From assembly GCF_031851795.1 (NCBI RefSeq), contig NZ_CP134696.1, positions 3,802,501 through 3,866,500 of the forward strand: a stretch of DNA of 64,000 bases, given 5' to 3'. The position numbers and the translations under genes were made by a program. Positions within the stretch are counted from its first letter, which is position 1, and the number at the start of each line of letters is the position of its first letter. Shown in pieces: positions 23,984 to 30,291 of the stretch. This stretch comes from Pontibacter sp. G13. Its GTDB lineage: Bacteria > Bacteroidota > Bacteroidia > J057. A model generated the notes under the pieces. That model did not search any database. It saw nothing but the letters and a program-made list of their open reading frames with translations, and was not told the origin of the DNA.

Positions 23984-24153
23984 TCGATTATATCTGACGA
24001 GTGGTGGGGTAATAATGTGCAGTTCCATGATTCAACCTACGGGTGAAAAAAAATTTCTTCCATGCACACTCCGTGTAGTTACCTGCTCACTCCGTCAACC
24101 CTCCAAGGCACTATGTGAAATGCCTAAGCAACTCCAGATGTGAGACCCTGTAG

Positions 24154-24161
24154 TATCTTTG
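24154..24161 (+). promoter_or_regulatory. Candidate -7 promoter element of the histidine-kinase operon
   Basis: TATCTTTG matches the Bacteroidota TAnnTTTG element, 62 bp before the ATG at 24224. No TTG is seen at the expected -33 place, which lowers the confidence. Confidence 0.3.
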
Positions 24162-24223
24162 GCCTATCTCTGAAATTGGAAAAGCATCGTTGTATATGTA
24201 TGTTTATTCGAAACGACCACTGT

Positions 24224-26197
24224 ATGAACCGCTTTTGGCTTTGCATATTCCTTGCTGGATGGTGTCTGATTGTACCTGTGGACCTGTATGGACAGAGTGC
24301 TGAAACAAGCACTAGAGCGACTTATTCCAAAAAGGGGAGAGTGGTTTCATCTAATGTGAATCACTTATATGAGTACGCCGCTGAGCAATTTGGCCAAGAT
24401 CCAACTCAGGCATTCGATGCGCTGGAAGAAGCCTTGCAAATAGGAGTTGAATCCAATGACCGGTCCATTCAGGCAGAAAGCTACCTGCGACTCGGAGGAT
24501 TCAATTTGCAGCTACAGCGATATCCCACTGCTGAAATCCAAACTGACCAAGCACTCAAGCTACTTCGAAAGCTTCGAAACCCCCAGAAACTATTCGAAGC
24601 CCAATTGCAAATGGGGGCGATTTACAAAGCTTCAGGAAATTCTCGCAAAGCGCTAAAGTCCTACCAATCCGCGCTCCCATTCGCCCAAAAACAAGGGAAT
24701 ACTCAGCAACACGTCCAGACCTTGATTGCCATTGGGGAGATTCAACTAGAAATGATGGATCTCGATGATGCCGAAAAATCCTTTCAGATGGTACTGCAGC
24801 TTGAGACTAGTCGAAAAAATGAGGCCGGAGTGGCAAGTGCCAATACCTATCTAGGGGATGTGAATGCACTCCGAGGGCAAGAGGAGCAGGCTTTGGGGAA
24901 CTACAAGATGGCCCTTAATACCAATGCGCAGGATGAAGAGCAACTCCGCAATTCTTTGGATCGAGTGGATCAGAGTTATAGGTCCAGAAAACAGAATCGA
25001 TCAGCCATAGATTTTCGACAAGAGATCCAACAGGTTGCAGACTCAATCGGAGGATATGAGCGACTTTCGACCGATAACCGCAACAAACTGGGGGAGTTGT
25101 ATCTCGAAGAAGATGAATCCGAGGATGCGATTGAGCAATTCAGTTACGGTTTGGAAGCAGCGCAGGAGGCAGGGGAATTGGAGGAGCAGCAAGCAGCCTT
25201 CACTGGTTTGGCAAGTGCCTATGAAAAAATGGGAGACTTAGATCGGGCAGTCGCCAATCTCCGGGCCGCCAATACCATCAATGATTCCCTCCTCTTTCGA
25301 AGAGAAACGGATTTCAAAAGCACCCAATCTTTGCTGGCGGAGCTGAGTGTGAGAGATCAACGGATTGCTACTATCAAACAAAATCAGCTCAATCAAGAGA
25401 CGTTACTGGAACTGCAAGATCAAAAGCTAGAGACGCAGCGTGCACAATTAGCCAGACAGAAAACACTGATGCGGGCATTGGCTTCAGGGTTGGTTGTATT
25501 GATGATTTCGGGAGTATTCATTATTCGCAGCTATCGTTCGAAGCGAAGAGCCAATCAATTGTTGGCACTGAAATCGTTGCGAAGTCAAATGAATCCCCAT
25601 TTCATTTTCAACTCACTCAATAGTATCAACAGCTTCATTTCTCGACAGGATGAGCGTAGTGCCAATAAGTATTTGGCGGATTTCTCCAAGTTGATGCGTG
25701 CGGTGATGGAAAATTCGGAACATGATTTTGTGCCATTGAATACCGAGCTCCACGTTTTGAGGCTGTATGTGGGGTTGGAGCATTTCCGTTTTCAGGACAA
25801 ATTCGACTTTGAATTCGAAGTGTCGGATGAAATTGATATAGATGAATTGGATATTCCTCCGATGCTGGTTCAGCCATATATCGAAAACGCCGTTTGGCAC
25901 GGCCTGAGATATTTACCTGAAAAGGGACATCTGTCGGTCCATTTCTCTCAGACAGATAAGAATCTCATCGTAGAAATTGTCGACAACGGTATTGGTAGGG
26001 AAAAATCTCAAGCACTGAAAACCAAAAATCAGCGCGCTCAAAAATCGACAGGCATTCGAAATACTCAGTCTAGGCTAGCGATCATCAAGGAACTGTACAG
26101 CTGGGAAGTGAAAGTGGAAATATCTGATGCTTTCCCTGATACTGATCACGTAGGCACGCGAGTAGTCATCCATTTGCCGCTTCATACTCATTCATAA
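24224..26197 (+). CDS. LytS-type sensor histidine kinase with TPR sensor region
   Basis: 657 residues from the ATG at 24224 (MNRFWLCIFLAGWCLIVP, a signal peptide). Residues 45-370 are tetratricopeptide repeats (AEIQTDQALKLLRKL, ALKSYQSALPFAQKQGN), then a coiled coil (NQLNQETLLELQDQKLETQR), one membrane helix (about 420-440; ALASGLVVLMISGVFII), the His_kinase domain with NPHFIFNSLNS (His459) and a HATPase_c domain (DNGIGREKSQ, TGIRNTQSRL). The sensor part is periplasmic, the kinase cytoplasmic. It should phosphorylate the LytTR regulator whose gene starts 18 bp downstream. Confidence 0.93.
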   Translation: MNRFWLCIFLAGWCLIVPVDLYGQSAETSTRATYSKKGRVVSSNVNHLYEYAAEQFGQDPTQAFDALEEALQIGVESNDRSIQAESYLRLGGFNLQLQRYPTAEIQTDQALKLLRKLRNPQKLFEAQLQMGAIYKASGNSRKALKSYQSALPFAQKQGNTQQHVQTLIAIGEIQLEMMDLDDAEKSFQMVLQLETSRKNEAGVASANTYLGDVNALRGQEEQALGNYKMALNTNAQDEEQLRNSLDRVDQSYRSRKQNRSAIDFRQEIQQVADSIGGYERLSTDNRNKLGELYLEEDESEDAIEQFSYGLEAAQEAGELEEQQAAFTGLASAYEKMGDLDRAVANLRAANTINDSLLFRRETDFKSTQSLLAELSVRDQRIATIKQNQLNQETLLELQDQKLETQRAQLARQKTLMRALASGLVVLMISGVFIIRSYRSKRRANQLLALKSLRSQMNPHFIFNSLNSINSFISRQDERSANKYLADFSKLMRAVMENSEHDFVPLNTELHVLRLYVGLEHFRFQDKFDFEFEVSDEIDIDELDIPPMLVQPYIENAVWHGLRYLPEKGHLSVHFSQTDKNLIVEIVDNGIGREKSQALKTKNQRAQKSTGIRNTQSRLAIIKELYSWEVKVEISDAFPDTDHVGTRVVIHLPLHTHS

Positions 26198-26215
26198 CCT
26201 CAACACTCGAATTCT

Positions 26216-26959
26216 ATGAAAGCCATAATGGTGGAGGATGAAATCGCCAGCCGTGAGACCCTCCGAAATTACTTGACCAAGTATTGCCCATCAGTCGAAT
26301 TGGTGGCTGAGGCTCCTTCTGTAGCTGAAGGCCTCAAGGCGATTGCCCTGCATCAACCAGATTTGGTATTTCTGGATGTGGAGATGCCGTATGGCAATGC
26401 TTTTGATCTATTGGAACAAGTTCAGGATATCACCTTCGAAACCATTTTTGTCACTGCGTACAGCCATTATGCTGTGCAGGCGTTGAATTTTTCGGCATCC
26501 TACTATTTGTTGAAACCCATCGATATTGAGGAACTGATCCAGGCAGTAAGCAAGGTGGAGGAAGCTCAATCTCAGAAGCAAGATCAGTTGAGGACCAAGA
26601 TTTTGATCGACAATCTCAAGACGATGAATCACCAGCTCAAAAAGGTGGTTTTGCCTGTTATGGACGGATTTGAGGTCGTTCAGGTGAAAGATATCATTCG
26701 GTGTCAGGCGAATGGGAATTTCACTGATTTTTATTTGGCAGATGGATCAAAGCGCATGATCTGTAGAACCTTGAAATTCTATGATGAGATACTGTCTCAA
26801 CTTGGGTTCTGCCGTGTCCATAAATCCCATTTGATCAACTTGGAGTACATCCTCTCTTACAAGAAAGGGAAAGGGGGTACAGTCCTACTTCAAGGCAATC
26901 ATGAGGTGGAGGTGTCTCCCTCGCGGAAAAAGGAATTTCTGAATCATTTTATATCTTGA
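26216..26959 (+). CDS. LytTR-family response regulator
   Basis: 247 residues. The receiver domain (1-120) has the acidic pair E7/D8, the phospho-acceptor D54 (VFLDVEMPYG), the threonine/serine switch (IFVTAYS) and the conserved lysine (LLKP). The LytTR DNA-binding domain (about 145-245) shows the usual VKDIIRCQANGNFTDFYLAD and FCRVHKSHLINLEYI segments. Together with the LytS-type kinase it forms a two-component system. The gene for the next membrane protein starts 53 bp after its stop and may be in the same operon. Confidence 0.94.
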   Translation: MKAIMVEDEIASRETLRNYLTKYCPSVELVAEAPSVAEGLKAIALHQPDLVFLDVEMPYGNAFDLLEQVQDITFETIFVTAYSHYAVQALNFSASYYLLKPIDIEELIQAVSKVEEAQSQKQDQLRTKILIDNLKTMNHQLKKVVLPVMDGFEVVQVKDIIRCQANGNFTDFYLADGSKRMICRTLKFYDEILSQLGFCRVHKSHLINLEYILSYKKGKGGTVLLQGNHEVEVSPSRKKEFLNHFIS

Positions 26960-27012
26960 CGGTAATTCCCAAGTTTGCCTATTTGCGCATCCAAACCCTC
27001 AAATTCACGATC

Positions 27013-27498
27013 ATGGCTCGAGATTCTCATCTCATCAAAATGACGCTTTCACAATTCAATGTGCTTTTTTATGCCATGTTGATAGGCTTGACTGTTATGG
27101 TCTCAGTCTTCTATTATTTACAGCATAATGAATTCATGTCTACGGACGAAAGTCTTTCCCAAACGCTTGAAATTCCGCTGTTTGTGATTGTGGCCATAGG
27201 CGTGTTGGGAGCAAGGTGGATCTTCCCATGGATGACGCGACAGATCGACGAGGACCTAAAAATGCCAGAAAAGCTTGCCAAACTGCGGACAGCTTACATC
27301 CTTCGACTAGCCTTGTTGGAGTTGCCTGTAATATTTGCGGGAATCGCCTTTCTGTTGACAGGCAGAGAACAGTATTTTATGCTATCGATTATCCTCATCG
27401 GATATTTTTTCCTGTTTCGGCCCAGAGCAGATCGTTTGAGAGATGCGTTGTCGCTGACCGAATCAGAAGATTTGGCATGGGAAGAAGCTGCTCGTTGA
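27013..27498 (+). CDS. Small four-helix membrane protein of unknown function
   Basis: 161 residues from the ATG at 27013 (MARDSHLIKMTLSQFNVLFY); a TTG-started longer frame overlapping the LytTR stop is less likely. Four membrane helices are evident (FYAMLIGLTVMVSVFYYL, LFVIVAIGVLGARWIF, LALLELPVIFAGIAFLL, FMLSIILIGYFFLF). A helix with charged ends (RQIDEDLKMPEKLAKLRTAY) joins helices two and three. Many Bacteroidota carry such short proteins of unknown role. It lies between the two-component system and a ProRS-like gene, all on one strand with short gaps. Confidence 0.75.
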   Translation: MARDSHLIKMTLSQFNVLFYAMLIGLTVMVSVFYYLQHNEFMSTDESLSQTLEIPLFVIVAIGVLGARWIFPWMTRQIDEDLKMPEKLAKLRTAYILRLALLELPVIFAGIAFLLTGREQYFMLSIILIGYFFLFRPRADRLRDALSLTESEDLAWEEAAR

Positions 27499-27541: not shown

Positions 27542-29236
27542 ATGAGAGTATCCCAGCTCTTGGGTACGACCTTGCGACAAGTTGCCGATCACGACGGTTG
27601 GCCATCCTATGGGATGTTGCTTCGTGCAGGATACATTCGCCCAGCGTTTTCAGGACAGTATGTATGGCTTCCCCTCGCAAAAAGAGCGCTAGATAGAATT
27701 TCTCAGATCTTCATTGATCAACTTCACCTCCAAAATGGTCAGCCGATTCAGCTTCCTCATTTCCTGCCTGCTGATCTTTCGACAAATCGTGGCAGATATG
27801 ATGAAGTTCCAGGATTTGGCTTTTCCCGTTCTGGGAGAAGCTATGCACTACATGCCAATCTCGATGGATTACTTATCCAAACTGCCACTCAAGAGATTTC
27901 CAGCTATCGACAAATTCCAGTAACGATTTATCAATTGACTTGGGAATCTTTGGATACCCAATCTGGAGGCGGTTTTGCCATGCCATGGGAATCGCCTGTC
28001 CTTAGGGTATGGCAATTGGCACCTGATGAGGAAACTGGACTTGACATGTATGAAGCGGTTTGGGATGAGTGGATGAATCTATTGTTGAGTTGGGGACTCC
28101 AGCTTGAAGAGGCTTGTTCAGATCCCGGAGTTTGGGGAGGGCGAAGAGCTATTCAAGGATTTCTGGAACACGAACAGGGGCCTTCTGAGTGGATTGAAGG
28201 TCCCAATGGTTGGCAGGACCCACTTGTACATCAGTCAATATTTCCCCAAACAGGTCCAGAGAACCCAGCAACACGAACGCGAATTCACACTCCTGGTGTG
28301 TCCACTATTGCTGAATTGGCGGCATTCATGAAAGTAGAAGAAAGCCAAATTGCCAAAGCTGTCTGTTTCGTTGGGGTACATACACATAGCGGCCAAGATC
28401 AATTGATCATGGTGATGGTGAGAGGAGATCTGGAGGTCAACGAACAATCTATCCGAAAAGCTGCCAACCTACATGCACTCAGGCCCGCCACGGCCGCTGA
28501 GATTCAATCTTGCGGAGCGGTGGCAGGATTTGCCTCGCCTGTCGGGGTTGATCACGCCAAAGTTCAGGTGTTGGTCGACCTTTCCATTGATCAAGGTACA
28601 GGATGGATAGCAGGAGCCAATGAGGTCGATTATCATTGGGAAGGCGTATGTTTTGGAAAGGACTTCGAGGCTGATTTGACAGGTTCTTTTTCCAAACCAG
28701 ATCCTTCGAATGGAATTTGGACTAAAGGACTCAAGCTGCTTGAAGGAAAAGCTTTGGGAACAAAGTTCTCTGAGGCTTGGGAAGGAACCTATATGTCTGC
28801 AGATGGTAAACCTAAGCCTGTTTGGGTCAATTCATTTGAAATCAATCTGGGATCGGTATTCGCGGGGCTTGCGGAATCTCACCTAGAGGAGGATGGATTT
28901 TCCTTTCCATTTTCTGTGGCACCGTTTGATGTGGTGATCGTTTCGTTGGAAGATGGAGAGCCAACCCATGAAGCTGCCAAGAATATTTACCAATCTTTGA
29001 TTTCGGCAGGCATTTCAGTGCTTTGGGACGATAGGCACAAGAAAAGTGCGAGTCCGGGGGTAAAGTTCAAGGACGCAGAGTTGCGAGGGATCCCTTTGAG
29101 GCTAACGATTTCAAAAAAGACGCTTGCGGAGGAAGAAGTGGAATGGAAATGGCGGAATTCAGGCGAAAAGTATAGGATTCCCGTATCGTCAGTGATCGAT
29201 GAGGTTCTGGGCTTGCTGGGTGAAGTGGAGGAATGA
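27542..29236 (+). CDS. Prolyl-tRNA synthetase-like protein with degenerate catalytic core and intact editing domain
   Basis: 564 residues with the full bacterial-type ProRS layout: catalytic core halves (1-235 and 366-455), an inserted editing (INS/YbaK-like) domain (about 245-365) and an anticodon-binding domain (about 460-560; WDDRHKKSASPGVKFKDAEL). Flanking sequence still aligns (EISSYRQIPVTIYQ, ALGTKFSEAW, LEEDGFSFPFSVAPFDVVI), but the catalytic positions do not: the THEE proline pocket is NLDG (106-109), the motif 2 FRDE and arginines are replaced by ESLDTQSGGGF, and the motif 3 GxGxxR is EINLGS with serine for arginine. The editing domain keeps Lys272 and GANEVDYH (His365). It cannot be a normal ProRS; trans-editing of Ala-tRNA(Pro) is the best inference. 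It follows a two-component operon by 43 bp. Confidence 0.85.
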   Translation: MRVSQLLGTTLRQVADHDGWPSYGMLLRAGYIRPAFSGQYVWLPLAKRALDRISQIFIDQLHLQNGQPIQLPHFLPADLSTNRGRYDEVPGFGFSRSGRSYALHANLDGLLIQTATQEISSYRQIPVTIYQLTWESLDTQSGGGFAMPWESPVLRVWQLAPDEETGLDMYEAVWDEWMNLLLSWGLQLEEACSDPGVWGGRRAIQGFLEHEQGPSEWIEGPNGWQDPLVHQSIFPQTGPENPATRTRIHTPGVSTIAELAAFMKVEESQIAKAVCFVGVHTHSGQDQLIMVMVRGDLEVNEQSIRKAANLHALRPATAAEIQSCGAVAGFASPVGVDHAKVQVLVDLSIDQGTGWIAGANEVDYHWEGVCFGKDFEADLTGSFSKPDPSNGIWTKGLKLLEGKALGTKFSEAWEGTYMSADGKPKPVWVNSFEINLGSVFAGLAESHLEEDGFSFPFSVAPFDVVIVSLEDGEPTHEAAKNIYQSLISAGISVLWDDRHKKSASPGVKFKDAELRGIPLRLTISKKTLAEEEVEWKWRNSGEKYRIPVSSVIDEVLGLLGEVEE

Positions 29237-30055: not shown

Positions 30056-30113
30056 TTCGTATCTGTTTTCTGCTACAAAAAAAAAGCGATACATAAAGTA
30101 CCGCTCTTAGTTG

Positions 30114-30187
30114 CTCCCCCTCTTGGACTCGAACCAAGGACCTATTGATTAACAGTCAACCGCTCTAACCAACTGAGCTAAGGAGGA
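30114..30187 (-). tRNA. tRNA-Asn (anticodon GTT), copy 1
   Basis: A full 74-nt cloverleaf read on the minus strand: acceptor TCCTCCT/AGGGGGA, D arm GCTC...GAGC, anticodon stem GTTGA/TCAAT around CTGTTAA, T arm CTTGG/CCAAG with TTCGAGT. The discriminator is G and CCA is not encoded. Confidence 0.95.
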
Positions 30188-30217
30188 AAATAATGCTTTC
30201 AACAAGAACTCGTTTTG

Positions 30218-30291
30218 CTCCCCCTCTTGGACTCGAACCAAGGACCTATTGATTAACAGTCAACCGCTCTAACCAACTGAGCTAAGGAGGA
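30218..30291 (-). tRNA. tRNA-Asn (anticodon GTT), copy 2
   Basis: The 74 bases are identical to the other copy, with a 30-bp spacer, so the pair repeats with a 104-bp period. Read on the minus strand this copy comes first. A recent local duplication or ongoing gene conversion would explain the identity. Confidence 0.95.

Follow-up and report, generated by a model that had tools for sequence, protein, structure and literature searches.

In some Crenarchaeota, ThrRS-cat charges and a second protein, ThrRS-ed, edits (PMC7916415); ThrRS-ed is a truncated ThrRS without a catalytic site (PMC9976931). According to a 2024 review, the members of the INS superfamily are all single-domain proteins except the INS domain of ProRS (PMC11295145), and in a 2022 review of duplicated synthetases the sole entry for ProRS is the active ProRSx (PMC9437257). 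On its own, the INS domain of E. coli ProRS does not recognise tRNA, which is selected through the anticodon-binding domain (ABD) and the anticodon (Das et al., PMC3973320). Editing by the E. coli enzyme slows 9- to 20-fold when G35 or G36 is changed and depends little on the acceptor stem; E. coli INS still deacylates human Ala-tRNA-Pro, although E. coli ProRS is unable to charge that tRNA (PMC3973320). How recognition of the anticodon, ~70 Å off, reaches the editing site is an open question (PMC3973320).

Since INS selects its tRNA via the ABD, a ProRS that does nothing but edit needs INS, the ABD and a spacer, and can do without the ATP site, the proline site and the motif-2 contacts to G72/A73. 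The published ABD-based selection therefore predicts exactly the pattern of loss and retention that we describe here for a ProRS-like gene of Pontibacter sp. G13, located in a stretch of 64,000 nucleotides that was analysed as a whole (the window).

A full-length ProRS with a lost aminoacylation site

The open frame at 27542..29236 (+ strand) starts with ATG and encodes 564 amino acids plus stop, without an internal stop; at this composition, the chance of a 564-codon frame staying open is ~2e-14. The NCBIfam profile TIGR00409 (proS_fam_II) spans residues 1-550 of the product with 221.5 bits (cut-off 306.7), and NF006625 gives 283.7 (cut-off 558). The intact relative L008 of genome G004 scores 527.5 and 640.8 with the same two profiles. 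In the Pfam search, tRNA_edit (PF04073) was matched at 74.1 bits (cut-off 25.5) and HGTP_anticodon (PF03129) at 62 bits (cut-off 21); the class II core PF00587, matched at 93 bits by an intact relative, was not found. Among solved structures, P-type ProRSs are closest in sequence (2j3l, E=5e-59), and ThrRS matches solely via the C-terminal region. An initial annotation had described the frame as an intact, full-length ProRS-like gene whose aminoacylation site is destroyed while the editing and anticodon domains are preserved, and each part of that description holds. At the level of sequence, 27542-29236 is confirmed as a full-length bacterial-type (P-type) ProRS whose aminoacylation core is without its signature residues, and we regard it as a putative non-catalytic paralogue.

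Residues were compared in an alignment of 37 sequences (the window protein and 36 relatives), with a column counted as conserved if it was at least 90% conserved among 23 intact P-type ProRSs. Motifs 1 and 2 lie in the N-terminal aminoacylation core (residues 1-225, 27542..28216, + strand, as for all features of the gene), which has lost its catalytic residues and keeps 29 of 62 conserved columns. At residues 106-109 (27857..27868), NLDG replaces the THEE loop, which reads T[HA]EE in the relatives. The motif-2 hairpin (residues 137-152, LDTQSGGGFAMPWESP, 27950..27997) is degenerate: the FRDE/R...REF region is replaced (R137>L, R140>Q, R149>W, F151>S), and arginines 137, 140, 147 and 149 are all gone together with Phe151. 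In the C-terminal part of the catalytic core (residues 395-456, 28724..28909), the motif-3 arginine is Ser438 and 7 of 18 conserved columns are kept. The TxE loop and the motif 2/3 arginines of an active P-type ligase are absent, and the protein stays under both curated cut-offs.

Two technical explanations were considered. A shift of the motifs was ruled out, as their flanks align without a shift across all 37 sequences and the motif residues are lost rather than displaced. That the core was spoiled by a frameshift or by misassembly is unlikely because dead cores with different replacements occur in two other genera (genomes G003 and G009), where the hairpins are shortened.

AlphaFold2 models of the window protein and of its G009 relative (mean pLDDT 84.7 and 86.8) both contain the class II core fold and predict INS and the ABD well. 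In the window model, low confidence falls mainly on former active-site loops (84-93 and 138-146, the latter within the motif-2 hairpin) and on the linker 221-237. Among solved structures, its fold comes closest to E. faecalis ProRS 2j3l (Z 41.1 over 545 residues, rmsd 7.9 Å); without INS, 402 residues can be superposed on R. palustris ProRS at 4.0 Å. So high an overall rmsd to 2j3l would be expected if INS or other domains were placed differently in the model. As a separate observation, third-position GC over 27542-28910 (core and INS) is 0.39-0.41, lower than in the ABD (0.53) and in the tested neighbours (0.47-0.53).

Conservation of the editing and anticodon-binding domains

The INS editing domain (Pfam tRNA_edit, residues 250-366, 28289..28639) keeps 14 of 14 conserved columns. 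Lys272 (28355..28357), one of two INS positions to which the initial annotation had drawn attention, is invariant across the 37 sequences and aligns with K279 of Pseudomonas ProRS (L101), which should share the E. coli numbering up to that residue; in E. coli, replacing K279 with Ala makes ProRS editing-defective (PMC3973320). The other, His365, closes the GAN...H motif at residues 357-365 (28610..28636), in which G358, A and N360 are kept as well, as is D346 further upstream. The GXXXP loop, the second conserved element of the INS superfamily (PMC11286415), is present as G329-FAS-P333 (28526..28540). With PF04073 above its cut-off, the conserved lysine and this loop, the protein has the features of an INS-superfamily member. 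The ABD (residues 460-564, 28919..29233) keeps 15 of 15 conserved columns, including the signature D496-R498...G506-K508-F509...D511...G516-P518.

Together, the window protein keeps 29/29 conserved INS and ABD columns versus 36/80 in the core (Fisher p 1.5e-8), and the corresponding figures for the G009 relative are 28/29 and 33/80 (p=4.6e-8). Among intact relatives of the family (G007 against G004, L076 and L078), identity is 66-71% in the core, 44-55% in INS and 46-53% in the ABD. Between the window protein and intact G007 and G004, it is 25-34%, 37-43% and 46-53%, respectively. Because it is in the core that identity drops, INS and the ABD appear to evolve near the ordinary pace, with the aminoacylation core alone released. 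Even so, the chance of the 287-codon core staying open under neutral drift to saturation is ~1e-7, which argues that the core is constrained too, probably in a scaffold role. The selective constraint on INS and the ABD, as estimated from these comparisons, supports trans-editing over decay.

Intact and dead relatives in the same family

Relatives were retrieved by querying genome contigs with an alignment; a single-protein query had matched none. Within the class sample, P-type ProRS relatives are confined to this family (4 genomes among 395 sampled), and intact P-type ProRSs occur elsewhere in the phylum sample. The named relatives are the Saprospiraceae MAGs L076 and L078, and 'Bacteroidetes bacterium J049' (L077), which is the same contig as G009. 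These names suggest that the host belongs to the large-genome Bacteroidota, probably close to Saprospiraceae.

Four states were found. An intact P-type ProRS is present and an E-type ProRS was not found in G007 (93% complete) and in G449, the genome of L076; the G007 gene was assembled from two contigs overlapping by 17 identical residues. An intact P-type ProRS with INS coexists with an E-type enzyme, both apparently complete, in G004 (L008) and in G450 (the L078 genome). In three genera of the same family, a dead P-type core accompanies an E-type ProRS of complete length: in this genome (G000), in G003 and in G009. Most other relatives have the E-type enzyme alone. From these living genomes one can read a series that starts with P-type alone, passes through both types and ends with a dead P-type together with the E-type.

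The dead versions share 29-45% identity by domain across the three genera. In G009 and G003 they have a shorter motif-2 hairpin, the would-be contact to the acceptor end. The G003 gene runs into the contig end after its first 323 residues, in which retention is seen for 10 of the 14 INS columns and which stop before His365 and the ABD. In a tree, the dead forms are placed with support of 18-62 and two partitions disagree, so that a single clade is not decided by the tree; for the genes of G000 and G003, a common origin is indicated by the shared gene order.

The initial annotation had proposed evolution from a whole ProRS, and the relatives support this well: they carry intact P-type enzymes, once beside the same neighbouring gene, which is strong evidence that the dead gene is a descendant of a catalytic ProRS that occupied the same locus. 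In three family members with an E-type ProRS (G002, G010 and G012), an INS-type protein of any kind was not found; editing of Ala-tRNA-Pro by such a protein is therefore not obligatory in the family, and the function of the dead ProRS may be conditional.

Altered motif regions were also seen in the ProRS of Candidatus Kutchimonas denitrificans (L085 8001-9752), which reads MSHEENA, LREFTLLDSYS and GLDRLL with the arginines kept and may be a divergent active enzyme.

The charging enzyme and tRNA-Pro of the same genome

A second, catalytically complete ProRS without INS had been suggested as a point to look for, and the 7.67 Mb genome has one. It lies far from the window, at C1:2.71 Mb, and is an E-type ProRS of 507 aa that scores 574.9 bits with TIGR00408 (cut-off 437); PF00587, PF03129 and PF09180 are present in it and PF04073 (INS) was not found by Pfam. 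The window gene as the sole ProRS of the genome is ruled out by this complete enzyme. As in the ThrRS-ed system, a separate complete charging enzyme without an editing domain is at hand.

The tRNA-Pro genes, which were located with the Rfam tRNA model (a consensus-pattern search gave none), are two with UGG and one with GGG, all carrying the GG of the proline anticodon. An aberrant tRNA-Pro needing special handling was ruled out, the UGG isoacceptor being an ordinary bacterial one with C1:G72 and A73. A tRNA-Pro gene adjoining the ProRS-like gene was ruled out as well: the neighbouring tRNAs are a tandem tRNA-Asn(GTT) pair (30113-30187 and 30217-30291, - strand) ~1 kb downstream, for which no proline link was seen.

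Elsewhere in the genome, a stand-alone INS-like protein of 161 aa is encoded (L001 1441-1923, - strand; G000:C1:7298598). Its YbaK score falls far short of the cut-off (34.9 bits, cut-off 153), which makes it no clear YbaK, and its nearest solved relative is the uncharacterised 3op6. This protein could carry out the tRNA-Pro editing instead.

Proposed function and alternatives

By sequence, then, the protein has lost its catalytic residues, has fully kept its INS and ABD signatures, descends from an intact ProRS and resides with a complete E-type ProRS. We infer that it is probably a trans-editing factor derived from an entire P-type ProRS, one that would read the anticodon of tRNA-Pro and clear the amino acid, probably Ala, misattached by the E-type ProRS. 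Ala-tRNA-Pro is the default assumption for the substrate because the INS signature is unchanged. The initial annotation had proposed an anticodon-reading trans-editor or a tRNA-binding regulator, and the present results support its interpretation in part.

In the mechanism that we propose, the E-type ProRS, having no editing domain, would at times mischarge tRNA-Pro with a small amino acid, most likely Ala. The ProRS-like protein would grip the mischarged tRNA via its ABD, reading G35/G36, and could dispense with the contacts that motif 2 makes to the acceptor stem. Once the CCA end had swung into the pocket of INS, hydrolysis would follow, with the ester positioned by Lys272 and the GXXXP loop. 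As a scaffold, perhaps with a dimer interface, the dead core would hold INS and the ABD at the right distance.

The gene neighbourhood raises a different possibility. Upstream, on the same strand, 24140-27498 encodes a histidine-kinase-like protein (HFIFNSLNS motif), a LytTR response regulator (26216..26959) and, directly before the ProRS-like gene, a small membrane protein (26956..27498). The order response regulator, membrane protein, ProRS-like protein is kept in G003, where the regulator is 72% identical, and a homologue of the membrane protein also precedes the intact ProRS gene of G007 (BLASTP E 2e-19). Such an arrangement would suit a regulator or sensor that binds tRNA-Pro, whether uncharged or (mis)charged, and passes on a signal, for instance together with the membrane protein and the LytTR regulator, hydrolysis being unimportant; other dead class II synthetases, HisZ and GCN2, have turned into regulators. 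However, the residues of INS chemistry (Lys, GXXXP, GAN...H) would be needless for a pure binder and are all kept, the ProRS that follows the membrane-protein gene in G007 is intact and presumably charging, and the ProRS genes of G009 and G004 have other neighbours. We consider a regulatory role unlikely.

Trans-editing of a changed substrate, namely Ser, Abu, Cys or a non-proteinogenic residue on tRNA-Pro, or Ala on another tRNA, seems to us rather improbable. The INS superfamily covers a wide range of amino-acid specificities (PMC11295145) and the specificity of the pocket is not fixed by sequence alone, but INS identity to the intact cis-editing relatives is hardly lowered, and the retention of all conserved ABD columns favours the ancestral tRNA.

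A subunit that edits or stabilises solely in a complex, formed with the E-type enzyme or with both ProRS and tRNA, would have a precedent in YbaK, which acquires its tRNA specificity by forming a complex with ProRS (PMC3973320); hetero-oligomers are possible for duplicated ThrRSs (PMC4787780), and a folded core is kept in the models. Against this, the P-type and E-type proteins are very divergent, the C-terminal ~160 residues being all that aligns (29% identity), and with its own ABD kept the protein would not need a partner for specificity, which makes this reading very unlikely. A functionless relic on its way to loss, as redundancy for charging and the absence of the gene from several relatives might suggest, is the least probable of all, given 564 codons without a stop despite a core at ~30% identity, the retention of all conserved INS and ABD columns in the window protein and of all except one in G009, and the persistence of dead versions in three genera.

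Comparison with known systems

The preferred reading, a trans-editing ProRS, has a wider meaning if true. A multidomain INS trans-editor with its own anticodon reader would show the two tasks of ProRS separated by nature. A protein that evolved to keep solely the pathway from anticodon to editing site would isolate that pathway, and intact relatives that can be aligned with it would serve as controls. The origin of an editing factor by synthetase replacement would also become observable: a whole dead synthetase kept beside a different charging enzyme suggests that an entire enzyme was turned into a stand-alone proofreader.

With P-type ProRSs that carry INS (TIGR00409; E. faecalis 2j3l), the window protein shares the collinear core-INS-core-ABD arrangement, the INS and ABD signatures and the best sequence and fold matches; it differs in that all its catalytic motif regions are without key residues, in its scores below the curated cut-offs and in the lack of a PF00587 match. 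POLG2, the non-catalytic accessory subunit of mitochondrial polymerase gamma, likewise keeps a class II-like core and an ABD-like domain as a folded unit (Z ~30), but it is without an editing domain and works in DNA replication. ProRSx of Streptomyces is also a bacterial ProRS paralogue (PMC9437257); unlike the window protein, whose charging site is destroyed, it is catalytically active and charges tRNA-ProA.

ProXp-ala, YbaK, ProXp-x and ProXp-ST1/2 resemble the window protein in having an INS-family domain, with the Lys and GXXXP kept, outside a charging synthetase. Published descriptions give each of these a single domain, and ProXp-ala recognises the acceptor stem (PMC11295145, PMC3973320), whereas the window protein is multidomain (564 aa) and has its own anticodon-reading domain.

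The initial annotation had stated that no protein of this design was described. For ProRS this stands, as none was found in our search of open-licence papers; the idea as such is known for threonine from the archaeal ThrRS-ed (PMC7916415, PMC9976931), and among INS-type trans-editors single-domain proteins alone have been described. ThrRS-ed is a non-charging synthetase paralogue that keeps an editing domain and an ABD and edits in trans for a separate charger (PMC7916415, PMC9976931, PMC11295145); the window protein likewise keeps both domains and has lost its charging residues, and editing in trans is predicted for it. ThrRS-ed differs in being archaeal, specific for threonine, equipped with another editing domain and truncated, without a catalytic site, whereas the window protein keeps the whole core fold, has an INS domain and finds its full-length match in ProRS. 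The charging partner differs too: ThrRS-cat there, an anciently diverged E-type ProRS here. The window protein belongs to neither ProXp-ala nor ThrRS-ed. On balance, we favour the view that the window protein is the first anticodon-guided multidomain trans-editor of the INS superfamily, a whole ProRS made into a proofreader after an E-type enzyme took over charging, with intermediates that survive.
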